A stretch of DNA of 64,000 nucleotides, taken from an uncultured Verrucomicrobiota bacterium. GTDB taxonomy: Bacteria > Verrucomicrobiota > Verrucomicrobiia > Opitutales > Opitutaceae. The DNA lies in the NCBI GenBank assembly GCA_903898675.1, contig CAIUGM010000033.1, positions 1-64,000 of the forward strand, in the 5' to 3' direction. The position numbers and the translations under genes are program-made. This document shows, piece by piece, positions 14,617 to 42,783 of this stretch; the first letter of the stretch is position 1; each line of letters begins with the position of its first letter. The notes under the pieces were generated by a model. The model did no database searches, was not told the origin of the DNA, and saw nothing but the letters and a program-made list of their open reading frames with translations.

Positions 14617-17043
14617 CTAGAGCCGGCTGCGCAGGTCGGCCGGCAAAAGCTCGAGCGCCTGGTCCCGCAGGCGCTGGTCGGTGATGGCCAGGCTGTACGC
14701 CTTGCCGAGCACCTGCAGCCGGAAGAGTGAAACGGTGGTGAGCGAACGCAGTTTCGCGTCGTCCGCCTCGGCCAGGCAGCGCCGCACCTGCTCGCGGGCG
14801 AGCTCCGGCAACTTGGCGCGCGCGAGCACCACCGCGAGACTGGCCCGCCGGTCCCACGGCAACCCGCGGTCGGCGCCGGCGGTCAGCCGCCGCCGCAGCG
14901 ATTCAAGCGTGCGGTCGAAGCCGGCGCGATCGCCGCGCGCGAGATCCACCTGCGCCCGGGCCGTCAGCGCGCCGAGATCGGCCGGATACCGCCGCAAGAC
15001 CTGCGCCACCGCCGTCGCCTGCTCAAGGTCGCCCATCTCGACAAAGTATTCCGCCGTCCGGCTCAGCGCCGCGGCATCGTCCTGGTCCTCGACCACCTCG
15101 AGGATCTTGACCGACTGCCCCTCGAATCCCGGGATGACCGGGAGCTGGTAAGGCACCGGCTTGAGCCAGGGCGGCAGCCGCCAGTTTGTGATCCGCTCGA
15201 AAAATGTGCCCTCGATCTTGCCGATGCCCATGCGTGTGTAGGCATCGAGGTAGTTATCCCAGGACGGAATGATGATATGCGTCACCCCGCGCTGGTCGAT
15301 CAACTCCTTTGCCTCCTCGAGCGTTGACGCACTGACGATCCGGATGGCCGCCCCGAGCCCGTCGAGGTTTTCCCGGCTGAGGGTCGCCAGCCCGCGCACC
15401 CCGCCGTAGTAATAAAGGGTAACGGTTTGGTTATGCGGCGCCAGGATCACCGCCCCGTCAGGCCCGGCATGCACTGCCAGCCAGCGGGCCAGGTCCCGCT
15501 CCACCAGGCCCAGGATTTCGGATTCATCGAGGACATTCTTGTCGCCGGCCGGCCCGGAGGGCGCGACCTGGACGGCGCCCAGCAGGAAGACCGCCGCCAG
15601 CAGTGCGGCCCAGAGCGAAAGCACCAGCCGTGGTCGCAGGAAATCGCGCCAAGCCGCCGTCGCCGCGACCAACAGGACGAGCAGCAGCGCATCGACCGTG
15701 TGCCACCAGCTGAGCTGGTGGCCGGCAAATCCCATGGCGACTCCCATCGGGAGCAATGCGATCGCCAGTGAAACCCGGCCCGCCAGCGCCGTGCGCCGGC
15801 GCCAGATCAACCAGGCGGCCGGCAAGATCAGGAACGCCGGCGCCAGCGTGGCGCACGCGCGCGGGGTGAGACCGTCATGGATCAACCAAGCCCAGAGATT
15901 CGCGGTCGGGGTGTCGCCGGGCAGGCGGGTCAGGCGGAACGCCGGCAGATTTGCATCGAGAAAACCCCAGCTGTGGGTCCGCCACAGCGCAAAAGGCAGG
16001 GCGAGAAATGCGGCGGCAAATATCACCCCGAGGCCGATGGTGCGCAGGTCACGCCGGGGGGCCTGGCCCTGAACCCAGCCCGCCGCCGCCGCCAGCAAGG
16101 CGCCGCCACCCAACCAGGCGAGGCCGTAGAGCGGGTGCACGACCCTTAATTCCCATGATCCCAGATGGGCGGGAAAATACTCCGCCAGGTACCCCGCAAA
16201 CGTGGCGGTCGCCCCGCCCAGGGCCCAGGCCAGCCACGGCAATTTTACCGCCGTCGCCTGACCCCGCGCCACCCACGCCGCGAGCAATCCGCCGAGGGCG
16301 ATGCCGCCAAGGACCGGCGCCTGGACGGCCACCCCGATCCAGAGTCCGAGTCCGCCGGCGATGCCGCCGAGGAAAAACCAGCGGCGGGCGCTGCGCTCCC
16401 TCGACGCGGCGGTGCCATGTGCCGCCCTGGCTCCGGCCAGCAGCAGCAGCACGCTCCAGCATACCGCGACCTGCCCGAGCCCGGCATCGTCGGGTGCACC
16501 CGGCAGGAACCCTGCGCCAAACGGGAAAAGGGTCACGGCTCCCGCCGCCAGCAAGGCGGCCGGCCAGGCACCGAACTGCCACGCCACGAAGATTGTCCCG
16601 CCGATGAGGAGCAGCAACAGCAGCAGCGGGTCGGCGATCAGGGCCGCGCGTTCGAGGGCCGCGCTGATCGGCCGGCCGGAAACTGACCGGTCAATCCACG
16701 CGATAGCACCAAGCCACCACCGGTAAGGTGAGGCCGCATCGACGGCCCGGCCATAGGGCGCATTTTCGTAGTCGATATGCCGCACCCGCCACGTCCGCTG
16801 GGCGAACATTTGCTGCGTCTGGTCGAGCCATTCGTAACTGGCATTCTCATGCCCCGGCACGATCAAGCGCGTCTGGGCCCCGGCCGGGGCGGCCTGTTCG
16901 GCCGTGGCCGAAACATATTCCACCCGGCGGGCCCGGAGCGCACCGGTCCAGACGAGAAAGGTCACGGCCCCGAGCAGGACCGCCACCCAGGCAAGGGCGG
17001 AAAATCGGAAGGGCTGGCTCACTGGGGTCGGTGCGTTGGCCAC
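14617..17043 (-). CDS. GT-C-like multi-pass membrane protein, copy A
   Basis: An 808-residue inner-membrane protein. A first hydrophobic helix (about 15-33) is followed by a large extracytoplasmic loop with EWLDQTQQMF, HIDYENAPYGR and ASPYRWWLGAIAW, resembling the first loop of STT3/PMT-type GT-C glycosyltransferases, where acidic residues bind metal and lipid donor. About ten further hydrophobic segments run to roughly residue 500. The last 300 residues are soluble: an alpha/beta part (AVILAPHNQTVTLYYYGGVRG, THIIIPSWDNYLD) and a TPR-like helical tail. It is divergent from the first UnbV gene (119 bases between starts) and has a close paralogue at 24608-27052 in the same relation to another UnbV gene. 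Glycosyltransferase activity is inference only. Confidence 0.75.
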   Translation of the reverse strand: MANAPTPVSQPFRFSALAWVAVLLGAVTFLVWTGALRARRVEYVSATAEQAAPAGAQTRLIVPGHENASYEWLDQTQQMFAQRTWRVRHIDYENAPYGRAVDAASPYRWWLGAIAWIDRSVSGRPISAALERAALIADPLLLLLLLIGGTIFVAWQFGAWPAALLAAGAVTLFPFGAGFLPGAPDDAGLGQVAVCWSVLLLLAGARAAHGTAASRERSARRWFFLGGIAGGLGLWIGVAVQAPVLGGIALGGLLAAWVARGQATAVKLPWLAWALGGATATFAGYLAEYFPAHLGSWELRVVHPLYGLAWLGGGALLAAAAGWVQGQAPRRDLRTIGLGVIFAAAFLALPFALWRTHSWGFLDANLPAFRLTRLPGDTPTANLWAWLIHDGLTPRACATLAPAFLILPAAWLIWRRRTALAGRVSLAIALLPMGVAMGFAGHQLSWWHTVDALLLVLLVAATAAWRDFLRPRLVLSLWAALLAAVFLLGAVQVAPSGPAGDKNVLDESEILGLVERDLARWLAVHAGPDGAVILAPHNQTVTLYYYGGVRGLATLSRENLDGLGAAIRIVSASTLEEAKELIDQRGVTHIIIPSWDNYLDAYTRMGIGKIEGTFFERITNWRLPPWLKPVPYQLPVIPGFEGQSVKILEVVEDQDDAAALSRTAEYFVEMGDLEQATAVAQVLRRYPADLGALTARAQVDLARGDRAGFDRTLESLRRRLTAGADRGLPWDRRASLAVVLARAKLPELAREQVRRCLAEADDAKLRSLTTVSLFRLQVLGKAYSLAITDQRLRDQALELLPADLRSRL

Positions 17044-17121
17044 GGGTCGGAGCCGGCATGCAATTGCACGCGAAAGCAGCGCGCAAGCAAAGTTCTGTCA
17101 CGCGTCCCGGATCGGGAAACC

Positions 17122-17150
17122 TTGACTCTCCCGAGGGGGGTTCGTCCCAT
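17122..17150 (+). promoter_or_regulatory. Conserved promoter of UnbV gene copy 1
   Basis: TTGACT (17122-17127), a 17-bp spacer and TCCCAT (17145-17150), ending 12 bases before the ATG at 17163. The same layout precedes copies 2 and 3. No Shine-Dalgarno sequence fits in the remaining leader. Confidence 0.5.
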
Positions 17151-17162
17151 TCGGGCCGCACG

Positions 17163-20100
17163 ATGTTAGCCCCCGAGCATTGCCATCGCCTCCGCGTGAG
17201 GACTGCCGTCGATCACATCCTCCGGTGGGTATTGCTGGTGGGAACCTTGTGCGCCGGTCCGGTCGGGCACGCCGCCGAGACCGCACCCGGCCTCAGTGCA
17301 AAGCCGCTCGCCCCCCACCCCTCTCCCCCGGGAAAAACCATGTTCGTCCAGCTGCCCCCGGAACAGACCGGCGTGGTCACCACGAACAACTTTGCCGATC
17401 CCCGGATGTGGGGCGACCTTTACCAGGAATTCGAGAGCGGCTCGATCGGCACGGGCGTCGCCATCGGGGACTACGACGGGGACGGGCGGCCCGATATCTT
17501 TGTCGTCAGCATGACCGAGAGCTGCCGCCTCTTCCGCAACCTCGGGAACTTCAAGTTTGAGGATGTCACGGCCAAGGCCGGCGTCGGCGACATCGGGCCG
17601 GCGGCCGGCGTCTGGAAGCACGGCGTCACCTTCGTCGACGTGAACAACGACGGCCGGCTCGACCTTTATGTCTGCCGCTACAACGCCCCGAACCTGCTCT
17701 ATATCAACCAGGGCGACGGCACGTTCAAGGAGATGGCGCACGCCTACGGGCTCGACGTGAAGGACGCCTCCGTGATGGCCTCGTTCTGCGACTACGACCG
17801 CGACGGCTGGCTCGATGTGTACATCGCGACCAACCTGCTCGACAACACGAAGCACCCGAACGGCCAGCGCGGCATTTTGCTCCACAATAATCGCGACGGC
17901 ACCTTCACCAACGTCACGGAGAGCAGCGGCATCGCCGGCGAATCGCAGAGCCATTCGGCCACGTGGTGGGATTTCGACAACGACGGCTGGCCCGACCTTT
18001 ATGTCGCCAACGACTACGGGGTGCCCGACAAGCTGTACCACAATAACCGTGACGGGACCTTTACCGACGTGATCAACCAGGTCCTGCCGCACACCTCGTA
18101 TTACTCGATGGGTTCGGACCTCGGCGACGTGAACAATGACGGTCTGGTTGACTTTCTCGTGGCCGACATGGCCACGTCCACGCATTACAAGGACCAGAAC
18201 TCCATCGCCGAGGCGCGCGAAAAGGCCCAAGACATGGATGGCACCGGGCAGACGCCGAAATTTCACCGCAGCGCCCTTTACCTGAACACCGGCGGAGCTC
18301 ACCTGCTGGAAGGCGCGTACCTCACCGGCTTTGCGGCCACCGACTGGACGTGGTCGGTGCGCCTCGAGGACCTCGACAACGACGGTCGCCTCGACCTGGC
18401 CGTCACGAACGGTTTCAACCGGGATCCGAACCCCGATGTTTACGCGCGCGCGATGAACGCCAGCAGCCCGGCCGAGCGCACGCGGATCTTCCACGACAGC
18501 CCGGTGCTGAACGAAACCCACCTGGCGTTCCGGAATCTCGGCGACCTGCAGTTTGAAAACGTCAGCACCGCCTGGGGCCTGGACCAGAAGGGCGTCAGCT
18601 TTGGCGCCGCGTTCGGCGATCTCGGCGGCGACGGAAACCTCGACCTGGTTTACGCCAACTACGAGGGAGGCGTTACGGTCCTGCGCAACGACAACAACAC
18701 CGGGCACCGGGTGATCATCGATCTGCGCGGAACAGTTTCCAACCGGTTCGGCGTCGGCGCCAAGGTCAGGATCGAAAGCGCCCTGGGTACCCAGGTACGC
18801 GAACTGACGCTCGCGCGCGGCTACGCCTCCAGCAGCGAGCCGGCGGTACATTTCGGGCTCGGCGCCGATACGCTGATCAAGCGGATGACGGTCACCTGGC
18901 CGAGCGGCCACGTGCAGACTTTTGCCCAGCTGCCGGTCGACCAGCGATTCACGATCACGGAGCCCGCGGGTGTTCCGCCCGCGTCGGCCCGGCAGGGCCC
19001 GCCGGCGCCGGCCGGCCAATTCACCGAGGTCGGCCAAAACACCGGTCTGCTGCGGGGCTCGCGCGAGGAGCCGGTCGACGAGTCCTCGCTGCAACGACTC
19101 GTGCCGTTTCGCCTGAACCGCCGGGGCCCGGGCCTGGCCGTCGGTGATGTCGACGGCCACGGCCGCGATGCCGTGGTGCTCGGCGGAACCACCCTGGATC
19201 CCCTGCGGATCCTGCACGAAACCGCCGCGGGGCAATTCAGCGCCGGCGAGGCCAAGGCACCGGCATCCGGCAGCGAGGTCAACGACGGGCCGGTGCTCCT
19301 GTTTGATGCCGAGGGCGGGGGCCGGAACGATTTGCTGGTGACCAAGGGCGGCAGCGCGCTGCCCGCGGGTGCGCCGGAATACCAACCCCGCTTGTTCCTG
19401 AACGACGGGCATGGCGGTTTTCACGCGGCTCCCGAGGGTACGCTGCCGGTCCTCTCCATCAGTGCGGGGACGGCGGTGGCCGCTGACTTTGATCACGACG
19501 GCCGACTCGACCTCTTCATCGGCGGGCGGGTTGCACCCGGCCAGTATCCCTTCGCACCACAGAGCGTGCTGCTCGCGAACCGCGGCGGGAAGTTTGAGGA
19601 TGTCACCGATGCGCTCGCGCCGGGACTGAAGGACGTCGGCATGGCGACCTCCGCGCTTTGGAGCGATGTCGACGGAGACGGCTGGGTCGACCTGCTGGTC
19701 ACGCTCGACTGGGGCGGCGTAAAGTATTTCCACAACGACCAGGGCAAGGGCTTCACCGACTGGTCCGAACGCGCCGGCTTTGCCGCCGCCGGCTCCGGCT
19801 GGTGGACGTCGATCACGGGCGCAGATTTCAATGGCGACGGCCGCATCGACTACGTCGTCGGCAATCTCGGGCTCAACACCCAGTACCACGCCGATCCCGC
19901 GCACCCCGCGCTGCTCTTCTCCGGCGACTTCAAGGGCGACGGCTCGACGCAGCTCATCGAGGGGTACTATGAGGGCGAAAAAATCTACACCTGGCGCAGC
20001 CGCAAGGGCCTGGCTGCAACCCTGCCGTCGATCCTGAAGCGCTTTCCCAAGAACGACGCTTACGCCCGGGCCACCCTCGGCGAGATCGTGGGTGAAGCCA

Positions 20101-20792
20101 AACTCGCCGCCGCGCAGCGCTTCGCCGCGACGGAATTGCGCAGCGGCGTGTTCCTCAGCCAGCCGGATGGCACGTACCGTTTCGAGCCCCTGCCCCGCCT
20201 GGCCCAGATCGCCCCGTTGCAGGGTATTGTCGCCGGTGATTTCGATGGTGACGGACACGCCGACATCTACGCGGTCCAGAATTCCTACGCACCCATCTCC
20301 TCAATCGGCCGGTTCAACAACGGGCTAAGCCAGTTGCTACGGGGCGACGGGCACGGTCATTTCACGGCGGTGCCAGTGGCCGAGAGCGGCTTGATCGTCC
20401 CCGGCGACGCCAAGGCGCTGGCGGTGCTGGACATTGGGAACGACGGCTGGCCTGACTTCCTGATTTCGCGCAATAACAACACCACGCTCGCCTTTCAGAA
20501 TCGCGGTGTGGCCGGCCATCACCCGTTGCGCGTCGCCTTGCGCGGACCGGCGGGCAATCCCACCGCGGTCGGCGCACGGATCACGGTCGAGCTCGCCGAT
20601 GGCTCGATCCAGACCAGCGAGGTCTACGCCGGCTCGGGTTACTACAGCCAGTCTTCCGCTGCGTGTTTCTTCGGCTACACCGACGCCAATCCGCCCAAGG
20701 CGGTCCGCGTCCGCTGGCCTTCCGGCGCCACGACCCGGCACGCGGTTCCAGCCGCGGCCACCAACCTGACGCTGACTGCGCCCGACTCTTAA
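17163..20792 (+). CDS. Secreted FG-GAP/VCBS repeat and double ASPIC/UnbV protein, copy 1
   Basis: A 1209-residue exported protein. The ATG at 17163 is set by the aligned start of copy 2 and by the promoter just upstream; the open frame extends further but only as noise. A signal peptide ends near HAA (38). At least twelve integrin-type calcium loops of D-x-D/N-x-DG-x-x-D form are visible (for example DYDGDGRPDIF, DYDRDGWLDVYI, DVDGDGWVDLLV), building two beta-propeller blocks. Each block is followed by an ASPIC/UnbV domain: about 514-585 (RGTVSNRFGVGAKVRIES) and 1118-1195 (NPTAVGARITVELADGS). The family binds calcium at or outside the cell surface; no enzymatic role is established. It is divergent from membrane protein A. 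Confidence 0.88.
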   Translation: MLAPEHCHRLRVRTAVDHILRWVLLVGTLCAGPVGHAAETAPGLSAKPLAPHPSPPGKTMFVQLPPEQTGVVTTNNFADPRMWGDLYQEFESGSIGTGVAIGDYDGDGRPDIFVVSMTESCRLFRNLGNFKFEDVTAKAGVGDIGPAAGVWKHGVTFVDVNNDGRLDLYVCRYNAPNLLYINQGDGTFKEMAHAYGLDVKDASVMASFCDYDRDGWLDVYIATNLLDNTKHPNGQRGILLHNNRDGTFTNVTESSGIAGESQSHSATWWDFDNDGWPDLYVANDYGVPDKLYHNNRDGTFTDVINQVLPHTSYYSMGSDLGDVNNDGLVDFLVADMATSTHYKDQNSIAEAREKAQDMDGTGQTPKFHRSALYLNTGGAHLLEGAYLTGFAATDWTWSVRLEDLDNDGRLDLAVTNGFNRDPNPDVYARAMNASSPAERTRIFHDSPVLNETHLAFRNLGDLQFENVSTAWGLDQKGVSFGAAFGDLGGDGNLDLVYANYEGGVTVLRNDNNTGHRVIIDLRGTVSNRFGVGAKVRIESALGTQVRELTLARGYASSSEPAVHFGLGADTLIKRMTVTWPSGHVQTFAQLPVDQRFTITEPAGVPPASARQGPPAPAGQFTEVGQNTGLLRGSREEPVDESSLQRLVPFRLNRRGPGLAVGDVDGHGRDAVVLGGTTLDPLRILHETAAGQFSAGEAKAPASGSEVNDGPVLLFDAEGGGRNDLLVTKGGSALPAGAPEYQPRLFLNDGHGGFHAAPEGTLPVLSISAGTAVAADFDHDGRLDLFIGGRVAPGQYPFAPQSVLLANRGGKFEDVTDALAPGLKDVGMATSALWSDVDGDGWVDLLVTLDWGGVKYFHNDQGKGFTDWSERAGFAAAGSGWWTSITGADFNGDGRIDYVVGNLGLNTQYHADPAHPALLFSGDFKGDGSTQLIEGYYEGEKIYTWRSRKGLAATLPSILKRFPKNDAYARATLGEIVGEAKLAAAQRFAATELRSGVFLSQPDGTYRFEPLPRLAQIAPLQGIVAGDFDGDGHADIYAVQNSYAPISSIGRFNNGLSQLLRGDGHGHFTAVPVAESGLIVPGDAKALAVLDIGNDGWPDFLISRNNNTTLAFQNRGVAGHHPLRVALRGPAGNPTAVGARITVELADGSIQTSEVYAGSGYYSQSSAACFFGYTDANPPKAVRVRWPSGATTRHAVPAAATNLTLTAPDS

Positions 20793-20799
20793 TTCCGCC

Positions 20800-20874
20800 G
20801 GTAGGGGCGCAGACTTGCTGCGCCCTCGAACGCGATGCCACCCACGCAGGGCGCAGCAAGTCTGCACCCCTACC
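20800..20874. repeat. REP-like inverted repeat (REPIN-type) between UnbV copies 1 and 2
   Basis: A 27-bp arm starting GGTAGGGGCGCAGACTTG (20800-20826) is repeated in inverse orientation at 20848-20874 with one mismatch, separated by 21 bp. Each arm contains its own short palindrome (GGCGCAG-ACTTG-CTGCGCC). This two-REP arrangement resembles REPIN/BIME elements. It could also act as a terminator-like hairpin after UnbV copy 1. Confidence 0.75.
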
Positions 20875-20924
20875 ATCCAATTCGGGCTTTATCATGGGAT
20901 AAATCCCCCAACTAAAAACCTGCC

Positions 20925-20953
20925 TTGACTCCCCAGAGTGCGGTTCGTCCCAT
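20925..20953 (+). promoter_or_regulatory. Conserved promoter of UnbV gene copy 2
   Basis: TTGACT (20925-20930), a 17-bp spacer and TCCCAT (20948-20953), ending 13 bases before the ATG at 20967. The spacer end GGTTCG is also shared with copy 1. The TTG of the -35 box is in frame with the gene but is not the likely start. Confidence 0.5.
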
Positions 20954-20966
20954 CACTCCGATTACC

Positions 20967-23900
20967 ATGCTAGCCCCCAAGCATCGCCAAGTCCCCAAGG
21001 TGCGGGGCGCAACTCAACGGGCCTTGGTCTGCGCCCTCCTGGTAGGCGTTCTGTTCACGGGCGCCACGGCCGCGGATTCCACGGCCGGCCTCACTGAAAA
21101 ACCGCTCGCGCCCCACCCGTTTCCGCGCGGGAAAACCATGTTCACCCTACTGCCGCCCGAGCAGACCGGCGTGGTTACGACCAATAATTTCGCGGACCCG
21201 AAGATGCGCAGTGAACTCTACCAGGAGTTCGAGACCTCCTCGATCGGCACGGGGGTCGCCATCGGCGATTACGACGGCGACGGCCGGCCGGATATTTTCG
21301 TAGTGAGCAAGACCGAGAGCTGCCGGTTGTTCCGCAACCTCGGCAACTTCAAGTTCGAGGATGTGACGGAAAAGGCCGGCGTCGCGGATCACGGCGCGGA
21401 CGCGCTGGCCTGGAAGCAGGGGGTGACCTTTGTCGACATCAACAATGACGGCCTGCTGGACATCTACGTCTGCCGGACCCGGGCGCCCAATCTCCTCTAC
21501 ATCAACCAGGGCGACGGCACGTTCAAGGAAATGGGCCACGCCTATGGACTCGACGTCAACGACGCGAGCGTGATGGCGTCCTTCTGCGACTACGACCGTG
21601 ACGGCTGGCTCGATGTGTATATCACCACCAACGTCCTCGACATCGTGAAGCACCCGCACGGGCAGCGCGGCTACCTTTTCCACAACAACCGCGACGGCAC
21701 CTTCACCAACGTCACCGAACACGCCGGCATCGCGGGTGAGACGCAGAGTCATTCCGCGACCTGGTGGGACTACGACAACGATGGCTGGCCCGACCTGTAC
21801 GTCGCCTACGACTACGGCGTGCCCGACAGCCTCTATCACAACAATCGCGACGGAACCTTTACCGAGGTCATCGACCAGGTTGCCCCGCACACCTCGTTCT
21901 CCTCGATGGGCGCAGATTACGGCGACGTGAACAACGATGGCCTGATCGACTTCCTGGTCGCCGACATGGCAGCCACCACCCACCGCGTTGACCACCATTC
22001 CCTGGCGGATGCGCGCGGCCGGACCGAAGAGCCGGCCAACGACTTCACCGGCGCGCCGAAATACCACCGCAACGCCCTGCTCCTGAACACCGGCACCGGC
22101 CACGCCATGGAAGGAGCGTTTCTGGCCGGCCTGGCCGCCACCGACTGGACCTGGTCGCTGCGCTTTGAGGATCTCGACAATGACGGCCGCCTTGACCTCC
22201 ATGTGACCAACGGTTTCCCGCGCGATCCCGGCGAAGATGTCATCCGGCGCATGATGAAGGCGGAAACCCCCGCCGAGCGGGTCAGGATCATGTATGCGAG
22301 TCCGCCGCAGGCCGAGGTCCACCTGGCACTGCGTAATCTCGGTGACCTGCAGTTTGAAAACGTGAGCGCGACGTGGGGCCTTGACCAGAAGGGCGTGAGT
22401 TTCGGCGCCGCGTTTGGCGATCTGGGCGGCGACGGCAACCTGGACCTGGTTTACGCCAATTTTCACGCCGGCGCCACCTTGTTGCGCAATGACAACGACA
22501 CCGGCCACCGGGTGATGATCGACCTCCGTGGCACGGTCTCCAACCGCTTCGGCATTGGCGCGACCGTGAAGATTGAAAGCGCACTGGGCGTGCAGATCCG
22601 CCAGCTCTGGCTCGCCCGCGGGTACATGTCCAGCAGCGAGCCGGCGGTTCATTTCGGACTCGGCGCCGACACGCAAATCAAGCGACTGACCGTCACCTGG
22701 CCGAGCGGCCACGTGCAGACCTTTGCAAATCTCGGCGTGGACCGGCGCTTCACCATCACGGAGCCCGCCGGGGCTACGCCCGCCGCAGCCCCGCCAACCA
22801 CGGCACTCACGACCCAGTTCAGCGAGGTCGGCAAATCCACGGGCCTCGCGCTTCGGTCCCGCGAGGAGTTTGTCGACGAACTCGCCCAGCAACGCCTGCT
22901 GCCCATCAGGCTGAACCGCCGCGGTCCCGGCCTGGCGATCGGGGACATTGAGGGCACCGGATCGGACAACACCGCCGTGCTGGGCGGTACCACGCTGGAT
23001 CCCCTGCGCATTCTCCGCGGCACCCCGGCCGGGCAGTTTGCCCTCGCCGCAGGCGCCGGACCCACCACCGGCAACACCGTGAACGACGGACCGGTCCTGC
23101 TCTTCGATGCGGATGGTGATGGCAAAAATGACCTGCTTGTCACCAAGGGCGGCAACTCACTCCCGGCCGGCGAACCGGAATACCAACCCCGCTTGTTCCT
23201 GAACGACGGGCATGGCGGTTTTCACGCGGCTCCCGAGGGTACGCTGCCGGTCCTCTCCATCAGTGCGGGGACGGCGGTGGCCGCTGACTTTGATCACGAC
23301 GGCCGGCTCGACCTCTTCATCGGTGGGCGCGTCCTGCCCGGGCAATACCCGCTCCCGCCCCAGAGCGCGCTCCTGGCGAACCGCGGCGGGAAGTTTGAGG
23401 ACGTCACCGAAGCGCTCGCCCCCGGGCTGAAGGAAGTCGGCATGGTGACCTCCGCGCTTTGGAGCGATGTCGACGGAGACGGCTGGGTCGACCTGCTGGT
23501 CACGCTCGACTGGGGCGGCGTCAAGTATTTCCACAACGATCAGGGCAAGGGCTTCACCGACTGGTCGGAGCGCGCCGGCTTTGCCGCCGCCGGCACCGGC
23601 TGGTGGACCTCCATCACCGGCGCGGACTTCAACGGCGACGGCCGCATCGACTACGTCGTCGGCAATCTCGGGCTCAACACCCAGTACCACGCCGATCCCG
23701 CACACCCCGCGCTGCTCTTCTCCGGCGACTTCAAGGGCGACGGCTCGACGCAGCTCATCGAGGGCTATTACGAGGGCGAAAAACTCTATCCCTGGCGCAC
23801 GCGTCGGGACATGAGCGCTATTTTCCCGGCAGTTAAAAAGCAGTACCCTTGGGCGGACAACTACGCGCCGGCCACCCTCGAGCAGATCTTCGGCGCCGCC

Positions 23901-24593
23901 AAACTTGCCGCGGCGCAGCGCTTCGCCGCGACGGAATTCCGGAGCGGTGTGTTCCTGAGCCAGCCAGATGGCACCTATCATTTTGAGCCGCTCCCGCGGC
24001 TGGCGCAGATCGCGCCATTCCAAGGTCTCGTGACCGGCGACTTCGATGGCGACGGTCATGCGGACATCTACGCGGTCCAGAATTCCTACGCGCCGATTCC
24101 TGCAGTCGGCCGCTTTGACGGCGGCCTAAGCCAGTTGCTGCGCGGCGACGGGCACGGGCATTTCACCGCGGTGCCGGTCGCGGAGAGCGGCCTCATCGTT
24201 CCCGCCGACGCCAAGGCCCTGGTCGTGCTCGATCTCGATAACGACGGCTGGCCCGACTTCCTGGTAACCCAAAATCACAACACGACCCTCGCGTTCCATA
24301 ATCGCGGAGTCGCCGGGCATCATCCGCTCCGCATCGCCCTGCACGGACCGGCGGGCAATCCCACCGCGGTCGGCGCGCGGATCACGGTCGAGCTCGCCGA
24401 TGGCTCGATCCAGACCAGTGAAGTCTACGCCGGCTCGGGTTATTACAGCCAGTCCTCGGCTGCGTGCTTCTTCGGTTACACCGACGCCAATCCGGCCAAG
24501 ACGGTCCGCGTCCGCTGGCCCAATGGCGCCACGACCCAGCACCCGGTGCCGACCGCAGCCACGATGCTGACACTGGCTGCGCCCGGCTCCTAA
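20967..24593 (+). CDS. Secreted FG-GAP/VCBS repeat and double ASPIC/UnbV protein, copy 2
   Basis: A 1208-residue tandem paralogue of copy 1, in the same orientation and 174 bases downstream. The start ATG at 20967 (MLAPKHRQ) aligns with copy 1 (MLAPEHCH); the signal peptide ends near GATAA. The domain plan is the same: propeller block, UnbV, second propeller block, UnbV. Differences cluster in the first propeller, including an ANDFTGAPKYHRN segment and FHAGATLL instead of YEGGVTVL. Several stretches match copy 1 at the DNA level without change, the longest found being 131 bp at 23175-23305, which suggests gene conversion or recent duplication. Unlike copies 1 and 3 it has no divergent membrane gene; its 3' end faces membrane protein B with a gap of only 14 bases. 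Confidence 0.88.
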   Translation: MLAPKHRQVPKVRGATQRALVCALLVGVLFTGATAADSTAGLTEKPLAPHPFPRGKTMFTLLPPEQTGVVTTNNFADPKMRSELYQEFETSSIGTGVAIGDYDGDGRPDIFVVSKTESCRLFRNLGNFKFEDVTEKAGVADHGADALAWKQGVTFVDINNDGLLDIYVCRTRAPNLLYINQGDGTFKEMGHAYGLDVNDASVMASFCDYDRDGWLDVYITTNVLDIVKHPHGQRGYLFHNNRDGTFTNVTEHAGIAGETQSHSATWWDYDNDGWPDLYVAYDYGVPDSLYHNNRDGTFTEVIDQVAPHTSFSSMGADYGDVNNDGLIDFLVADMAATTHRVDHHSLADARGRTEEPANDFTGAPKYHRNALLLNTGTGHAMEGAFLAGLAATDWTWSLRFEDLDNDGRLDLHVTNGFPRDPGEDVIRRMMKAETPAERVRIMYASPPQAEVHLALRNLGDLQFENVSATWGLDQKGVSFGAAFGDLGGDGNLDLVYANFHAGATLLRNDNDTGHRVMIDLRGTVSNRFGIGATVKIESALGVQIRQLWLARGYMSSSEPAVHFGLGADTQIKRLTVTWPSGHVQTFANLGVDRRFTITEPAGATPAAAPPTTALTTQFSEVGKSTGLALRSREEFVDELAQQRLLPIRLNRRGPGLAIGDIEGTGSDNTAVLGGTTLDPLRILRGTPAGQFALAAGAGPTTGNTVNDGPVLLFDADGDGKNDLLVTKGGNSLPAGEPEYQPRLFLNDGHGGFHAAPEGTLPVLSISAGTAVAADFDHDGRLDLFIGGRVLPGQYPLPPQSALLANRGGKFEDVTEALAPGLKEVGMVTSALWSDVDGDGWVDLLVTLDWGGVKYFHNDQGKGFTDWSERAGFAAAGTGWWTSITGADFNGDGRIDYVVGNLGLNTQYHADPAHPALLFSGDFKGDGSTQLIEGYYEGEKLYPWRTRRDMSAIFPAVKKQYPWADNYAPATLEQIFGAAKLAAAQRFAATEFRSGVFLSQPDGTYHFEPLPRLAQIAPFQGLVTGDFDGDGHADIYAVQNSYAPIPAVGRFDGGLSQLLRGDGHGHFTAVPVAESGLIVPADAKALVVLDLDNDGWPDFLVTQNHNTTLAFHNRGVAGHHPLRIALHGPAGNPTAVGARITVELADGSIQTSEVYAGSGYYSQSSAACFFGYTDANPAKTVRVRWPNGATTQHPVPTAATMLTLAAPGS

Positions 24594-24607
24594 GATCAGG
24601 CCAGCAA

Positions 24608-27052
24608 CTAAAGCCCGCTGCGCACGTCCGGCGGCAACAGCGCCAGCGCGAGGTCGTGCAACCTGGCATCCGCCATCGGCAAGCCAAACGACTGGCCCAG
24701 GACCAGCAGACCATAAAGGGCGTCTGTCGACAGCGACCGGATCTTCTGTTCATCGATCTCCGCCAGACAGCGCCGCGTCTGCTCGCGAGCCGGCTCGATC
24801 CGCTCTCCCCGGGCCAGCGCAATCGCGAGACTGACCCGCCGGTCCCACGGCAGGAAACGGTCGGCGCCAGCGGACAAACGGGAGAGGAGTGCATCCAGGG
24901 TTTGGGTTGTGCCGCCACTGTCGCTCCGGGCATTGAGCACCTGCACGCGGGCCGCCATCGCGCCCACGTCGCCCGGGAAACGTCGCAAGGCCTCCCCGAC
25001 GGAGGCAGCCCGGTCAAGGTCTCCCGTTTCAACAAAGTATTCCGCGAGGCGGCTGAGGGCCACCGCAGGCTTCTGCTCGTCCACCACCTCAAACAGCAGC
25101 ACCGATTGTTTTTCGAAGCCCGGGATCACCGGCATCGGATACGCCACCGGCCGCAACCAGAGCGGCAGGTTCCAGCGGCGCAGTTCGCCGACAAAATAGC
25201 TCTTCCGGTTGGAAAACTGCGCCGCCAGATAAAGCCGCCCGAATTCCTCGAAAAACGGATCCCACGAGGGAATGACGAGGTACTTGATTTCCCGGGCCTG
25301 GACCAGGGCCTGCACATCTTGCATGCTGTTGGCGCCGCTGATCATCAGGGCCGTGCCGAAGCCGGCGTGGTTATCGGCTGAAAACGTCCCGACACCGCGC
25401 AGCCCGCCATAGAAACCCAAGGCGAGCGTCTGGTGCGGGGGCGCAAACACCACGGCACCACTTTCGCCCGCATGACTGGCCAGCCAGTGGGCGAGGTCCC
25501 GCTCCACCAATTCCTCCGTCTCGGCCGGCGTCAGGACCAGGTTGGCATCGATCGAGCGTTCCGGCCAAAGCTGGCCCAGCCCGGGTAGTGCGTACAGGGC
25601 GAGCAGAGCCGTCCAAAGCCATGGGTTGGGCTTGGACTCCGCCGGCGGGCGCTCCGCCGTGGCTGCGACCATCACACCGAGAAGCATTCCGTCGAGGACG
25701 CTCCACCAGGCCAATTGTTGGGTCGCAAACCCAAGCGCGATCAGCACGGGGCCGAGCGCAACGGCCAGCGAGATCCGCAACCGTAGCCCCAACCGGCCGG
25801 ACATGACCATCCACCCCGCCGGAAGCAGTGTGACCAGCGGCAGCAGTGTGGCCCAGGCCAGCCCGGTCAGGCCGCTGCGCGACAACCAGCCCCAGGAACT
25901 GGCGGCCACCAGGCCGCCCGGCAGATTGGTCAGCCGGACCGAGAGGAGATCGCGCGCCAGATATCCCCGGCTGCCGGACCAGCTCATGGCAACGGGGACG
26001 GCCACGACGGCGGCAACCGCGAGGGCCAGACGCACCAGGCGCCCTGTTGACCAGGGTGGATTTTCCCGTCGGCCCCACCCGGTCGTCAGTACGAGCAATT
26101 CACCCAGCCCCAGCCACGCCAGACCATAGAGCGGGTGCGGAAAATCCAAATGCCAGCCGCCAAGAAAGGACGGAAAGTATTCCACCAGATAAACCGCGCA
26201 GACTGTGACTGCCCCACCCAAGCCCCAGTGCCGCCAGCAACGGCCGGATAAAACCAAAGCCGGAATCCCGGCCGGATTCCGGCGCATGATTCCAGCGGCA
26301 ATCAGGCCGCCCAACCCCACGCCCGCGAGCAGCGGCACCTGGGTCGGCACATCCAGCCACAGACCCACTCCACCCACGACGCCGGCAAGCGCAAACCAGC
26401 GGGCCGTCCGCCGGTTATCACGCAACCCGGCCAGCAACAGCAAAACCCCGGCCAAGCCGCAGGCCCGGGCGAGTCCGTGCTGGTCCGGCACGCCGGGAAG
26501 AAACCCCGCGGCAAAAGGAAAGATCGTGACCAACCCGATCGAAAACAACGCCGCCGCAAAACCGCCGAAGCGCCACGCCACCAGTCCCGAAGCGAAAACC
26601 AGCAGCAACCCGTGCGCCAGCGGCTCGGCATAGAGCGACGCCCGCTCCACCGCAAGACCCACGGGCCGGCCGGATAGAAGATGATCCGCCCACGCCACGG
26701 CACCAAGCCACCACCGGTAGGGCGACGTGGCGCGTACCTCGCGGCCCAGCGGGGCGTTGTCGTATGCAACCTGCCGCACCCGCATCTCCCCTTGCGCCAG
26801 CATCTGCTGGGTCTGCGCAATCCACTCGAAGCTGGTTTCATTGCGCTCGGGCACAATCAACTGGCGCTGGCCGTTGGCGTAGCCGGTGGGCGACGACGGC
26901 GCGACGGCATCCGCGGACCCGGCCCGGCCCGCCAGACCCGACACATACTCCACCCGCCTGATCCGCTCGTGGTTGCTCCAGGCCAGAAAGGCGCAGGCAC
27001 ACACGGGGGCAATCAGCCAAACGCGCAGGAGAATCCGGGGTGATAGGCTCAT
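24608..27052 (-). CDS. GT-C-like multi-pass membrane protein, copy B
   Basis: An 814-residue paralogue of membrane protein A. I chose the ATG at 27052 (MSLSPRILLRVW) because it aligns best with copy A; an ATG at 27094 and a farther start are possible. It shares RRVEYVSG, the loop EWIAQTQQML...YDNAPLGREV...SPYRWWLGAVAWAD, about ten later hydrophobic segments, the soluble part with VVFAPPHQTLALGFYGGLRG and YLVIPSWDPF, and the TPR-like tail ending LLPPDVRSGL. It is divergent from UnbV copy 3 and converges with copy 2. The repeated pairing with UnbV genes suggests a joint role, perhaps lipid-linked glycan transfer, but no enzymatic residue can be proven from sequence. Confidence 0.73.
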   Translation of the reverse strand: MSLSPRILLRVWLIAPVCACAFLAWSNHERIRRVEYVSGLAGRAGSADAVAPSSPTGYANGQRQLIVPERNETSFEWIAQTQQMLAQGEMRVRQVAYDNAPLGREVRATSPYRWWLGAVAWADHLLSGRPVGLAVERASLYAEPLAHGLLLVFASGLVAWRFGGFAAALFSIGLVTIFPFAAGFLPGVPDQHGLARACGLAGVLLLLAGLRDNRRTARWFALAGVVGGVGLWLDVPTQVPLLAGVGLGGLIAAGIMRRNPAGIPALVLSGRCWRHWGLGGAVTVCAVYLVEYFPSFLGGWHLDFPHPLYGLAWLGLGELLVLTTGWGRRENPPWSTGRLVRLALAVAAVVAVPVAMSWSGSRGYLARDLLSVRLTNLPGGLVAASSWGWLSRSGLTGLAWATLLPLVTLLPAGWMVMSGRLGLRLRISLAVALGPVLIALGFATQQLAWWSVLDGMLLGVMVAATAERPPAESKPNPWLWTALLALYALPGLGQLWPERSIDANLVLTPAETEELVERDLAHWLASHAGESGAVVFAPPHQTLALGFYGGLRGVGTFSADNHAGFGTALMISGANSMQDVQALVQAREIKYLVIPSWDPFFEEFGRLYLAAQFSNRKSYFVGELRRWNLPLWLRPVAYPMPVIPGFEKQSVLLFEVVDEQKPAVALSRLAEYFVETGDLDRAASVGEALRRFPGDVGAMAARVQVLNARSDSGGTTQTLDALLSRLSAGADRFLPWDRRVSLAIALARGERIEPAREQTRRCLAEIDEQKIRSLSTDALYGLLVLGQSFGLPMADARLHDLALALLPPDVRSGL

Positions 27053-27153
27053 TCGGGTAATGGCAAACCGCGCCAAGACTGGAGTGGGGGTCATAGAATC
27101 GTGCGGCAGGACGGGCGCAAGAAAAGTCCAGACCAGATCGGACCAAGTCACTC

Positions 27154-27182
27154 TTGACTCACCTATTTGGGCCCTGCTGCAT
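27154..27182 (+). promoter_or_regulatory. Conserved promoter of UnbV gene copy 3
   Basis: TTGACT (27154-27159), a 17-bp spacer and CTGCAT (27177-27182), ending 10 bases before the ATG at 27193. The spacer sequence is unrelated to copies 1 and 2, but the -35 box and spacing are kept, which argues that the element is functional and not merely a relic of duplication. Confidence 0.5.
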
Positions 27183-27192
27183 GATCAGGCGC

Positions 27193-30100
27193 ATGCCTCC
27201 CCCGGCCCACTCCCCGCGCCCCCTTACCAGGAGTTTCGCGCGATGCGTCATCCGTTACGGGTTGCTCGGTTTAATCCCCTTCCTCGCGGAGCCCGCTCGG
27301 TCCGCCGGGGCTGTGCCCGGCATCAGCGACCAGCCCCTGGCCCCGCGTTCCGGCCCGCGCGGGCACACGATGTTCACCGAGCTGCCACCAGAGCAGACCG
27401 GTATTGTAACCACCAACAACTACGCGGACCCAAGGATGTGGGGCGAGCGCAACCGCGAGTTTGAAGTGGGGTCGATCGGCACCGGGGTGGCGATCGGCGA
27501 CTACGACGGAGACGGCCGGCCCGATATCTTCGTGGTGAGCAAAACCGAGAGCTGCCGGCTCTTCCGCAACCTCGGGGGCTTCAAGTTTGAGGATGTGACC
27601 GACAAGGCCGGCGTCGGCGACAAGGGTGAAGCTGCGGGCGTCTGGAAACAGGGGGCGACTTTCGTCGACATCAACAACGACGGCCGCCTCGACATCTATG
27701 TGTGCCGCTTTAATGCCCCGAACCTGCTCTATATCAACCAGGGTGACGGCACGTTCAAGGAAATGGCCCACGCCTACGGCCTCGATGTCAACGACGCGAG
27801 CGTGATGGCGTCCTTCTGCGACTACGACCGGGATGGGTGGCTGGATGTCTTCATCCAAACGAACCTGTTGGACGCCAACCTGCATCCGGGCGGCCAGCGC
27901 AACTACCTGTTTCATAACAATCGTAACGGCACCTTCACCAACGTGACCGAACAAGCAGGAATCTCCGGCGAAGGCCAGGGCCACTCCGCCACTTGGTGGG
28001 ACTTCGATAACAACGCGTGGCCGGACCTGTACGTCGCGAATGACTTCGCGCAGCCCGACAAACTCTACCGCAACAACCGGGATGGCACCTTCACCAATGT
28101 CCTCAACGAGGTAGTGCCCCACACGCCATTTTCTTCCATGGGCTCGGACCTGGGCGACGTGAACAATGACGGGCTGCTTGATCTGTTCGTCCCAGACATG
28201 GCCGCCACAACGCACGAGAAGGACCAGCGCGGCATGGCGGATTCCCGCAGCCGCACCACCGAGGATGACCAAAATCCCGGCCGGGCGCCCCAGTACGAAC
28301 GCAATGCGCTGTACCTCAACACCGGCACCGGTCGCTGCCTTGAGGCTGCAAACCTGACCGGTCTCGCCGCCACGGACTGGACCTGGTCACCCCGTTTTGA
28401 GGATCTGGATGATGACGGCCGGATCGACCTTTTCGCGACCAACGGCATGTACCGGGAGGCAACCAACCTGGATCTGATGGCGCGCCAGCTGAGTGCGCAG
28501 ACTGCCGCCGAACGAATACGGGTGATGCACGACAGCCTCCCCTTGGCCGAGTCCCACCTCGCTTTTCGTAATTTGGGCGACCTGCAGTTTGAAAACGTCA
28601 GCGCCGCCTGGGGCCTGAATCAAAAGGGCGTGGCGTTCGGTTCGGCCCTCGGCGATCTGGACGGCGATGGCGACCTCGACCTGGTCTATGCCAACTACCA
28701 GAAGGGCGTGACCGTGCTCCGAAACGACAATCAAACCGGGCACTGCGTGAACCTCGACCTGCGCGGCACGGTCTCCAACCGTTTCGGCGTCGGGGCGACC
28801 GTGACAATCGAAAGCGCGGCCGGCCGGCAGGTTCGTCAGCTCTGGCTCGCCCGCGGGTACATGTCGAGCAGCGAGCCCATGCTCCACTTCGGCCTCGGTC
28901 CGGATACGATGATCTATCGCCTGACGGTGCAGTGGCCCAGCGGAGGCCGGCAGGTTTTCGAAAATCTTCCGGTGGACCGCCGGTTCACCATCACCGAATC
29001 GCCCGGCAGCCTGCCGGCATTGTCCACGGCCCAGCCACCTACCGGCCAATTCACCGAGATCAGTGCGGCCGCCGGCTTGGCGGTTGGTTCCCAGGAGGAA
29101 ACCGTGGATGAGACCTCCATCCAGCGCCTGCTTCCACGGCGCTTGAATCGCCGCGGCCCGGGCTTGGCGGTGGGCGATATCGACGGCAGCGGGCAGGACG
29201 CTGTGATCATCGGCGGGACTACCCTGACTCCGCTCCGCATTCTGCGGCCCGCCCAGGGAAAGTTCGCCGAGCCGGTTGCCCCGGCTGTTGAAGCCGTCAC
29301 GGCGGTCGATGATGGTCCGCTGGTTCTGTTCGACGCCGCCGGGAATGGCGCCAATGACCTGTTGGTCACCCGGGGCGGAAGCACCCTGCCGGCCGGTGCC
29401 GTGGAGTACCAACCGCGGCTTTTCCTCAACGACGGCCGGGGCAACTTTCGCCCGGCGGCGGACGGTACCCTGCCACCGTTGCCCATCAGCGCCGGGGCGG
29501 TGGCCGTGGCTGACTTCGATCACGATGGCCGGCTCGATGTGTTCATTGGCGGCCGCGTGCTGCCCGGACAATACCCACAGGCGCCCCGGAGTGCCCTGCT
29601 GGCCAATCGCGGCGGTAAGTTCGAGGATGTGACCGACACGCTGGCCCCCGAGTTGCGCGAGGTCGGGATGGTCACCGCGGCATTGTGGAGCGATGTGGAT
29701 GGCGATGGCTGGGTGGATCTGGTGCTCACACTCGAATGGGGTGGCGTGAAATACTTCCACAACAATCAAGGGAAAGGCTTCAGCGACTGGTCCGGGCGAT
29801 CGGGTTTCGCCACGGCGGGCACTGGCTGGTGGACCTCGATCGCTTCGGCTGACTTTAATGGTGACGGCCGGCCGGATTACGTGGTCGGCAATGTGGGACT
29901 AAACACCCAATATCAGGCCTCCCCGGAGCATCCCGCGCTGCTATTTGTCGGTGACTTCAAGGGCGATGGCGATGAACCACAGATCGTCGAGGCCTACTAC
30001 GAGGGAGAAAATCTCTTTCCCTGGCGCACCCGCCACGATCTGGGCGCGGTGATCCCCTCCATCTTGAAGCGCTATCCCCGCAACGACTATTATGCCCGTG

Positions 30101-30822
30101 CCCCGCTGGACGCACTGCTGGGTGCGGGGAAGCTGGCCGCGGCGCAAAAGTTCGCCGCCACGGAGCTTCGGAGCGGGGTTTTCCTTAGCCAGGACGACGG
30201 CACCTACCGCTTCGAGCCCCTGCCCCGTCTCGCACAGGTCGCACCGTTGCAAGGCATGGTCGCCGGAGACTTTGACGGTGACGGGCGGGCGGACATCTAC
30301 GCCGTGCAAAACTCTTATGCGCCCATTCCCGCGGTCGGCCGCTATGACGGCGGCCTCAGCCTGATGCTGCGCGGCGATGGCCATGGCCACTTCACGGCGG
30401 TAACTCCGGCGGAGAGCGGGCTCATCGTGCCTGGTGATGCCAAGGCGCTGGCAGCGCTCGACCTCGGCCACGATGGGTGGCCCGATTTCATGGTCACCCG
30501 CAACAACTCCACTACGCTCGCCTTTCGAAACCAAGGCGTCTCCGGCCGGCATTCACTGAGGGTGCATCTGGAAGGCGCACCCGGAAATCCCCGTGGTATC
30601 GGCGCCCGTATCACCGTCGAATTTCAAGACGGTTCCGACGAAACCACCGAAGTCTGCGCCGGATCCGGTTACTACAGTCAGTCAACCCCCACCTGCTTCT
30701 TCGGCTATTTGGAGTCGAACCCACCAAAGAAGATCCACGTCCGCTGGCCAAATGGTATCACGACCGAATACGTCGCCCCCAACGGATCGTCCAGTCTCAC
30801 CCTCACCGGGCCAAAGTCTTGA
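27193..30822 (+). CDS. Secreted FG-GAP/VCBS repeat and double ASPIC/UnbV protein, copy 3
   Basis: A 1209-residue, more diverged paralogue of copies 1 and 2. The ATG at 27193 (MPPPAHSPRP) is preferred because it lies 10 bases below the conserved -10 box; an ATG at 27181 overlaps that box. A hydrophobic signal segment (GLLGLIPFLAEPARSAG) precedes the shared TMFTELPPEQTGIVTTNNYADPRMWG block. Two propeller blocks with calcium loops (DYDGDGRPDIF, DLDGDGDLDLVY, DFDHDGRLDVFI) are each followed by an UnbV domain. One loop reads DFDNNAWPDLYV, where the usual Asp-Gly is replaced by Asn-Ala, so that blade may have lost calcium binding. Divergent from membrane protein B. Its 3' end faces TonB receptor 2 across a bidirectional terminator. 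Confidence 0.88.
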   Translation: MPPPAHSPRPLTRSFARCVIRYGLLGLIPFLAEPARSAGAVPGISDQPLAPRSGPRGHTMFTELPPEQTGIVTTNNYADPRMWGERNREFEVGSIGTGVAIGDYDGDGRPDIFVVSKTESCRLFRNLGGFKFEDVTDKAGVGDKGEAAGVWKQGATFVDINNDGRLDIYVCRFNAPNLLYINQGDGTFKEMAHAYGLDVNDASVMASFCDYDRDGWLDVFIQTNLLDANLHPGGQRNYLFHNNRNGTFTNVTEQAGISGEGQGHSATWWDFDNNAWPDLYVANDFAQPDKLYRNNRDGTFTNVLNEVVPHTPFSSMGSDLGDVNNDGLLDLFVPDMAATTHEKDQRGMADSRSRTTEDDQNPGRAPQYERNALYLNTGTGRCLEAANLTGLAATDWTWSPRFEDLDDDGRIDLFATNGMYREATNLDLMARQLSAQTAAERIRVMHDSLPLAESHLAFRNLGDLQFENVSAAWGLNQKGVAFGSALGDLDGDGDLDLVYANYQKGVTVLRNDNQTGHCVNLDLRGTVSNRFGVGATVTIESAAGRQVRQLWLARGYMSSSEPMLHFGLGPDTMIYRLTVQWPSGGRQVFENLPVDRRFTITESPGSLPALSTAQPPTGQFTEISAAAGLAVGSQEETVDETSIQRLLPRRLNRRGPGLAVGDIDGSGQDAVIIGGTTLTPLRILRPAQGKFAEPVAPAVEAVTAVDDGPLVLFDAAGNGANDLLVTRGGSTLPAGAVEYQPRLFLNDGRGNFRPAADGTLPPLPISAGAVAVADFDHDGRLDVFIGGRVLPGQYPQAPRSALLANRGGKFEDVTDTLAPELREVGMVTAALWSDVDGDGWVDLVLTLEWGGVKYFHNNQGKGFSDWSGRSGFATAGTGWWTSIASADFNGDGRPDYVVGNVGLNTQYQASPEHPALLFVGDFKGDGDEPQIVEAYYEGENLFPWRTRHDLGAVIPSILKRYPRNDYYARAPLDALLGAGKLAAAQKFAATELRSGVFLSQDDGTYRFEPLPRLAQVAPLQGMVAGDFDGDGRADIYAVQNSYAPIPAVGRYDGGLSLMLRGDGHGHFTAVTPAESGLIVPGDAKALAALDLGHDGWPDFMVTRNNSTTLAFRNQGVSGRHSLRVHLEGAPGNPRGIGARITVEFQDGSDETTEVCAGSGYYSQSTPTCFFGYLESNPPKKIHVRWPNGITTEYVAPNGSSSLTLTGPKS

Positions 30823-36429: not shown

Positions 36430-36520
36430 CCCTCATAAAGTGGCAAGCTTCCCGCGACTGGCAAGCCGGCATCCCTGCCGGTCTTGCTCCACCGCCCAAG
36501 GAGCGAGTGCCCGCGCCGCT

Positions 36521-39031: not shown

Positions 39032-39060
39032 GGCAGCCGAATCAGGCCGGGCGGACCCGG

Positions 39061-40050: not shown

Positions 40051-40071
40051 GGGGGTGGGCGGGCTGGAAAA

Positions 40072-41280: not shown

Positions 41281-41292
41281 ACTGGGTCGGGG

Positions 41293-42654: not shown

Positions 42655-42697
42655 AAGGGGTAATGAAGAATCGGCCAGCGGGCCCGGGGGAGGGTTC

Positions 42698-42757
42698 ATG
42701 CTAGCCGATGCTACCCCCCGAGGTAATGAGAACCTTTGTCCCATACATGAGAACCTT
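42698..42757 (-). promoter_or_regulatory. AraC/XylR-type tandem operator and promoter upstream of GH1
   Basis: The 11-mer ATGAGAACCTT occurs twice in the same direction (42726-42736 and 42747-42757), exactly 21 bp apart, i.e. two helical turns. The promoter-proximal copy touches a -35-like TTACCT (minus strand, 42726-42721), followed after 17 bp by TAGCAT (42703-42698). An activator site overlapping the -35 is the normal geometry for AraC-family activators. Confidence 0.5.
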
Positions 42758-42783
42758 GAAACCCGCTAGGCCGCGGGCCGGGC

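Follow-up and report, generated by a model that had tools for sequence, protein, structure and literature searches.

What holds large polytopic membrane proteins beside giant secreted proteins in one repeated gene arrangement? The window studied here, 64,000 nucleotides at the beginning of contig C33 in the 3.5-Mb genome of an uncultured Opitutaceae bacterium, poses this question over positions 14.6 to 30.8 kb, where two membrane-protein genes (M1 and M2; M for the family) and three genes for giant UnbV proteins (U1 to U3; U for the family) lie in the order M1(-), U1(+), U2(+), M2(-), U3(+), with a gene for a TonB-dependent receptor (T) adjoining. An earlier note on this DNA had described three giant UnbV and two polytopic genes filling 16 kb, and the open reading frames (ORFs) and Pfam matches bore this out; no further gene was seen between the M and U genes of this stretch. 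The surprise is that, by sequence, the M proteins paired with U are dead oligosaccharyltransferases (OSTs). The best explanation of the whole, to which we give a probability of about 0.55, is that M is a pseudo-oligosaccharyltransferase kept as U's dedicated, non-catalytic partner in the inner membrane. The genes are as follows.

14617..17043, minus strand: M1, 808 residues, with a C-terminal globular domain at about 507-651 and a tetratricopeptide repeat (TPR) tail at about 655-800 (ORF, AlphaFold2 (AF2) model, fold match to OSTs, motif states).
17044..17162, no strand: divergent intergenic region between M1 and U1 (sequence).
17163..20792, plus strand: U1, 1209 residues (Pfam, AF2 model of the mature part, CRTAC1 fold match).
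20967..24593, plus strand: U2, 1208 residues (ORF, Pfam).
24608..27094, minus strand: M2, 828 residues, paralogue of M1 (ORF).
27193..30822, plus strand: U3, 1209 residues (ORF, Pfam).
31206..35045, minus strand: T, a TonB-dependent receptor with a Plug domain, convergent to U3 (Pfam).

M1 and M2 are 48-49% identical; as the earlier note had observed, both have a large first loop and end in a TPR-like tail. Its divergent starts hold for two pairs; the gap of 120-140 bp that it gave does not, the start-to-start distances being 119 bp (M1 and U1) and 98 bp (M2 and U3) with the starts chosen here, which for M2 is an ATG of our choice within a longer ORF extending to 27151. U2 and M2 are convergent, with 14 bp between them.

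We modeled M1 with AF2 from an 83-row alignment and obtained a mean predicted local distance difference test score (pLDDT) of 93.2 and a predicted template-modeling score (pTM) of 0.91. A Foldseek search with this model placed archaeal AglB on top (3wak, E 8.9e-11), followed by human and yeast STT3. VIA-align superposed it on AfAglB (3wak) with Z 21.4 and a root-mean-square deviation of 4.4 over 569 residues; rows 1-14 of its table were OST entries only, and DPY19, a C-mannosyltransferase matching at Z 17-18, ArnT and PglB came after them. Pfam was silent by comparison: neither M1 nor M2 has a family above cut-off or an STT3 (PF02516) match at E 0.1, no PF02516 match was found in the window's own genome at E 0.01, and among 10 homologues with intact catalytic motifs (see below) one, from locus L107, matched STT3, below the cut-off (18 of 24.5 bits). 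An M profile gave 183 matches to PDB sequences at E 1, and the 60 matches listed were all confined to the TPR tail, so the kinship with OSTs rests on the fold. In the model, M1 has a glycosyltransferase C (GT-C) fold, specifically of the STT3/AglB oligosaccharyltransferase type, which agrees with the earlier guess of a GT-C protein.

We collected homologues of both families (loci are labeled L and genomes G). M1 matched 14 of 177 genomes of the order, and a profile of 17 M sequences matched 69 of 150 genomes of the family, in which a U profile run at the same settings matched 38 at E 1e-100. At most six M and four U candidates were scored per genome in the family, and at most two M in the class and phylum; copy numbers and adjacency counts are lower bounds. 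Fetching and re-annotating 105 regions yielded 110 M sequences, which after removal of two duplicates left 108 distinct ones. Part of the gene calls in the analysis came from a home-made codon-usage caller.

In AfAglB (PMC8342417), the metal ligands are Asp47 (first DXD, external loop 1 (EL1)) and Asp161 and His163 (second DXD, Asp-His-His); Glu360 (TIXE, EL5) participates via water, and close to the phosphate are His81 and Arg426. All members of an intact set of 37 M homologues have D68, D185-H-H187, E379 and R445 (M1 numbering throughout), and column 102 holds H in 31 and Y in 4 of them. The spacings between positions 68, 102, 185, 379 and 445 are 34, 83, 194 and 66, against 34, 80, 199 and 66 for the AglB residues as that account gives them. 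From order, spacing, motif and fold, we take these columns to correspond to the catalytic sites of AglB.

M1 and M2 depart from this set almost completely. M1 reads A68, D185-D-A187, P379 and S445, and M2 reads T68, D185-Q-H187, V379 and A445; in both, the first DXD Asp, the TIXE Glu and the donor-phosphate Arg are replaced and the Asp-His-His is broken, with D185 alone left to the two. The WWDYG motif is absent from both translations. The same erosion marks the clade of 65 M sequences to which they belong, in which retention is 5/65 for D68, 37/65 for D185, 4/65 for H186, 18/65 for H187, 6/64 for E379, 25/65 for R445 and 0/65 for W103 in the first loop; E stands in place of D at position 68 in 23 members. 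None of the 65 has all three catalytic motifs (first DXD Asp, Asp-His-His, TIXE Glu), and of D68, D185, H187, E379 and R445 no member retains more than three. These comparisons set the 65 against the 37 intact sequences, out of 108; the others are L060, L061 and L062 (Q at the Glu column), L103 (G-H-H), and L104 and L172 (partial).

On a tree from which the motif columns were excluded, the degenerate sequences form a single clade (65 of 107 rows; Shimodaira-Hasegawa-like approximate likelihood ratio test support 100), and one change of the intact/degenerate state suffices. The tree was made with a 'quick' method, leaves 30 of 104 inner branches open and contains 26 rows of odd composition; the partial L104 is not in it, and rows with two motifs fall outside the intact/degenerate count.

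Loss of the motifs goes with adjacency to U. The earlier note had proposed looking for the pair in other genomes, and homologues do adjoin there: in the re-annotated regions, 60 of the 108 distinct M have a giant U no more than 1 kb away. In a family-wide comparison of 115 M and 129 U rows, entered by hand with shorter fragments omitted, 56 of the 115 M rows had a U row at a distance of 1 kb or less, 41 of these 56 being divergent to the nearest U. The 60 U-adjacent M keep none (49), one (10) or all (1) of the three motifs, and the 48 not adjoining a giant U keep three (36), two (6), one (3) or none (3); the Fisher p here, 3.7e-17, ignores relatedness. Within the degenerate clade, a giant U adjoins 59 of 65 members. 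The remaining ones are L045 and the second copy of L093, both beside a small FG-GAP gene, L096, L110, the second copy of L132, which is in tandem with a linked M, and L101, at a contig edge. Seen from the other side, M adjoins 50 of the 83 U that have both UnbV domains; among the 39 U ending near profile position 1110 the number is 5, and among the 7 partial ones it is 2. Tandem M homologues also occur in loci without a giant U (L157, L166, L054).

M and U also diverge pair by pair. Across 59 degenerate pairs from 30 genomes, M distances tracked U distances with a Mantel r of 0.90, and shuffling partners within genomes gave a mean r of 0.63, with none of 2000 shuffles reaching 0.90; in L044 two M have one U in common in this test. 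Co-inheritance alone can yield co-divergence of tightly linked genes, and the modules are multi-copy, so the pairing might be a by-product of tandem duplication without any functional tie. We consider this quite improbable. Genome G135 has six M copies dispersed over four or five places across more than 3 Mb, five of which adjoin a giant U; linkage holds in both layouts, the divergent one (45 of 59 pairs) and the co-directional one (14 of 59), the tandem order U then M being the mark of one subclade (L050, L055, L146, L148-L151, L153); and the tree places the catalytic loss and the linkage together, on one branch and a single time.

Could the clade instead consist of decaying pseudogenes of an ancestral oligosaccharyltransferase? 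The motif losses and a few broken copies (fragments beside a full M in L094 and L129) would fit, but M persists as full-length frames in about 30 genomes with a high-confidence fold. Pairwise ratios of nonsynonymous to synonymous substitution rates (dN/dS) were about 0.14 to 0.4 in eight pairs of the clade, with a ninth pair lacking a finite dS, and 0.08-0.26 in four intact pairs. These ratios indicate that the degenerate clade is under purifying selection, and on them we rejected decay, whose probability is close to negligible. The clade has, moreover, fixed residues of its own: W386 in 62 of 65 members and P593 in 58 of 65, neither of them in any of the 37 intact sequences. Also fixed are W595 (64/65 against 14/37), D596 (62/65 against 8/37) and W521 (64/65 against 9/37), and the new PSWD motif of the clade sits in the reshaped globular domain. 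By hand count over the fetched loci, 5 of 31 genomes with a degenerate M also have an intact one (G190, G199, G220, G224, G248); for the most part, then, M does not serve as accessory to an intact paralogue.

We next consider the partner. U1, U2 and U3 each contain two UnbV_ASPIC stretches and 10-12 FG-GAP_3 stretches in Pfam. U1 has a signal-peptide-like N-terminus, judged by eye, and reads as a secreted double CRTAC1-type protein (FG-GAP plus UnbV, twice); U2 and U3 are of the same kind. An AF2 model of mature U1 (1172 residues) had a pLDDT of 86.5 and matched murine CRTAC1 (9etn) in Foldseek with E 2.5e-27 over 581 alignment columns. The 59 paired U hold 250 N-x-S/T sequons against 332 in shuffled sequence, fewer than expected, and no sequon column is common to 30 of the 59; this deficit, together with the missing common column, is evidence against U as an N-glycosylation substrate. 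D-S/T-x, the O-glycosylation motif of Bacteroidetes, is likewise below expectation (109 observed, 246 shuffled). With the motifs lost and a sequon signal absent, we rejected M as an active OST of U. The earlier note had offered three roles for M, namely to modify, assemble or anchor its partner. The first finds no support in the motif losses of M1 and M2 and the sequon counts of U and is the least likely of the three; assembling or anchoring is the preferred reading.

It is very probable that M has an OST fold, is catalytically dead and is dedicated to U. We infer that it no longer transfers sugar and serves U instead, by assembly, holding or anchoring; assembly or holding is our tentative choice, at a little under even odds. 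OSTs, STT3A among them, act on chains emerging from the export channel, and translocon entries with OST chains are present in the VIA-align table of M1; a non-catalytic OST-fold M could therefore receive or hold an emerging U. M has the STT3/AglB fold, its metal site, catalytic acids and donor-phosphate arginine are eroded, and selection has retained it. In the mechanism we propose, such an M would take up U during its passage across or out of the inner membrane, keep hold of it or assist its folding. Contact may involve the cavity that once was catalytic, the globular domain in its new shape with the PSWD motif, and the TPR tail, of which PSWD and the tail are the candidate sites, and U would afterwards act in the envelope together with T. 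A bolder version, which we regard as rather doubtful, makes the M clade a nascent-chain receptor or foldase, in which the former acceptor-scanning machinery of the OST fold would take in and mature giant propellers at the site of export, in matched pairs and within an envelope system that includes a TonB receptor.

The main rival is that M binds a lipid-linked glycan or peptide without transfer and, instead of assisting assembly, anchors U, senses it or provides its retention site. It draws on the same evidence of a non-catalytic, selected OST fold, on the TPR tail and on the receptor gene: 28 of 41 degenerate U-linked loci have a T no more than 6.5 kb from M, against 5 of 21 intact loci (62 rows, counted in loci with 6.5 kb either side of M; Fisher p 0.0012, again without regard to relatedness), which makes the envelope the module's probable place of work. 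The donor site, however, seems to have eroded too, with the donor-phosphate Arg kept in 25 of 65 and the first-loop W103 in none, and we judge a binding role of this kind unlikely.

Besides the co-divergence that linkage alone can produce, several observations weigh against a dead OST dedicated to U. Four clade members (L116, L118, L120, L140) retain the whole Asp-His-His, the second copy of L093 retains two motifs (D68 and E379), and L120, L123 and L127 have three possible metal ligands (D/E68, D/E185, D/E/H187), yet are without E379. Acids also remain conserved in the clade (D/E93 in 64 of 65, E131 in 63, E577 in 64 and D596 in 62), so that an unknown chemistry stays conceivable. The intact M of L115 lies within 1 kb of a giant U; it is convergent, stands at the end of a U/M cluster and groups with intact rows on the tree. 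Finally, 6 of 38 giant-U genomes showed no M above 430 bits among the at most six M candidates scored in each, and in the window's own genome, with its 2 M and 5 double-UnbV U, two of the five giant U (contigs C4 and C7) have no adjacent M; U is therefore not strictly dependent on an adjacent M.

The acids at 93 and 131 and the Glu that replaces D68, along with the retained GT-C/OST fold and the presence of DPY19 among the fold matches, would suit an active glycosyltransferase with an altered catalytic arrangement that glycosylates U or a U-bound glycan. Against this stand the loss from M1 and M2 of all three motif sites and the donor-phosphate Arg, the lack of a conserved acid at 68 and 379 across the clade, where D185 is kept in just over half, and the depletion of both glycosylation motifs in U without a widely shared column. 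An active enzyme is accordingly improbable, and we retain the non-catalytic partner as our reading.

The degenerate proteins have a narrow range. Named relatives of M are mostly from Opitutaceae and other Verrucomicrobia; carriers of the pair with records not labeled MAG include Opitutaceae bacterium EW11 (L195) and Pelagicoccus sp. SDUM812005 (L227). A profile of the degenerate clade, run against 384 class genomes, scored 820-1111 bits in eight: seven belong to the family of the window, and G003 to the window's order. The remaining 31 genomes with a match reached no more than 620 bits. Across 387 phylum genomes the profile returned the same eight plus G114, whose M (L053) is intact. The motif reading covered few of these lower-scoring class and phylum matches.

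A promoter-like element, TTGACTC-N19-CAT, precedes each of the three U genes.

17122..17150, plus strand: element before U1, its first base 41 nt from the ATG.
20925..20953, plus strand: element before U2 (sequence match).
27154..27182, plus strand: element before U3 (sequence match).

It starts 39-42 nt upstream of the ATG in all three, a spacing that suggests very short U mRNA leaders. The whole genome holds six matches, three of them these. Across the family, the 400 nt upstream of the start contain TTGACTC in 19 of the 45 divergent U, in 2 of the 18 U that are adjacent in another layout and in 2 of the 18 that are unpaired, one of the last two being the C4 gene of the window's genome; for M and T the counts are 0 of 78 and 0 of 36. 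The 174-bp gap between U1 and U2 also holds an inverted repeat.

20800..20874, no strand: inverted repeat with 27-nt arms.

Its 19-nt core is found 36 times in the genome, and we do not think that this palindrome, similar to repetitive extragenic palindromic (REP) sequences, is part of the module.

Other genes recur near the pairs. Near 14 of 65 degenerate M, and near 0 of 37 intact ones, there is a gene for a small FG-GAP protein, which in some loci has a TPR gene after it. The cassette, encoding an FG-GAP protein of 420-439 residues and a TPR protein of 482-605 residues beside a pair or an M, is seen at L045:11250-14359, L048:15219-17905 and L051:5638-8738. Among 114 neighbor proteins from up to 23 paired loci there were 11 TPR proteins, compared with 6 of 116 near intact loci, and 6 small FG-GAP proteins. 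Membrane proteins with PMT_2 matches below cut-off and TPR tails, presumably TMTC-like, lie near T and M at L045:14460-16787 and L047:2083-4014. A PAP2/vanadium chloroperoxidase-like gene adjoins a shorter U at L055:11334-12578, and at L040:6531-7793 on the window's own contig, a gene whose product has a similar N-terminus, judged by eye, lies by U-like genes.

In the window, a mannan-type cluster at 35266-44139 stands beside the module and encodes an AraC/LacI-type regulator, glycoside hydrolases (GH2, GH130, GH27, GH1) and an AXE1 esterase. The regulator and GH2 recur by the pair in L048, relatives of the regulator, GH2 or GH130 lie near paired loci in L048, L095, L120, L127, L132, L144 and L152, and weaker regulator relatives (47-48%) near two intact, unpaired loci (L111, L112). 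Sugar-type regulators (Peripla_BP_3) are equally frequent near paired and intact loci, with five each, and no carbohydrate-active enzyme (CAZyme) family is among the 25 commonest in the 114 neighbors. With the regulator near intact loci and no common CAZyme family, the idea that the module generally belongs to glycan-use loci is unsupported.

How does the pair compare with known systems? STT3, AglB and PglB belong to family GT66. M shares the fold (520-580 aligned residues for STT3 and AglB), and its homologues unpaired with U keep the Asp-His-His with an order and spacing matching AglB; M1 and M2 differ in lacking the catalytic set, WWDYG and a Pfam STT3 match and in having the TPR tail. U resembles CRTAC1 and other ASPIC-UnbV FG-GAP proteins in Pfam domains and fold (9etn), and differs in carrying two FG-GAP/UnbV units per chain of about 1209 residues and in being paired with M. 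SusC/SusD pairs are similar in that a large secreted partner accompanies a TonB-dependent receptor, in this window by a mannan-type glycoside hydrolase cluster; however, U1-U3 have no SusD family match (Pfam, E 0.1), and near the sampled pairs the 25 commonest families include no CAZyme. PIGU, a non-catalytic GT-C-like subunit of the glycosylphosphatidylinositol (GPI) transamidase, is a precedent for a GT-C fold that persists without catalysis, and a GPI transamidase chain (9ub7_B) is in the M1 fold table at Z 10.4; that system is a eukaryotic multi-subunit complex. Among open-licence PubMed Central papers, which need not reflect all that is in print, we found none on STT3 pseudoenzymes or on CRTAC1 in Verrucomicrobia; in the same collection, UnbV and TonB-dependent receptors occurred together in gene-name tables, and papers naming FG-GAP, ASPIC and UnbV had, by their titles, other subjects.

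If our reading is right, a bacterial OST fold would have been retained once its catalysis was lost and linked in a pairwise manner with a secreted partner, and the intact relatives in neighboring genomes would allow comparison with the degenerate M. The giant UnbV/FG-GAP proteins would gain a specific candidate partner, and single genomes would supply natural sets of matched pairs whose members can be swapped. Because M has been kept beside giant U through repeated duplication in one bacterial family, the evidence points to a former enzyme turned dedicated helper.

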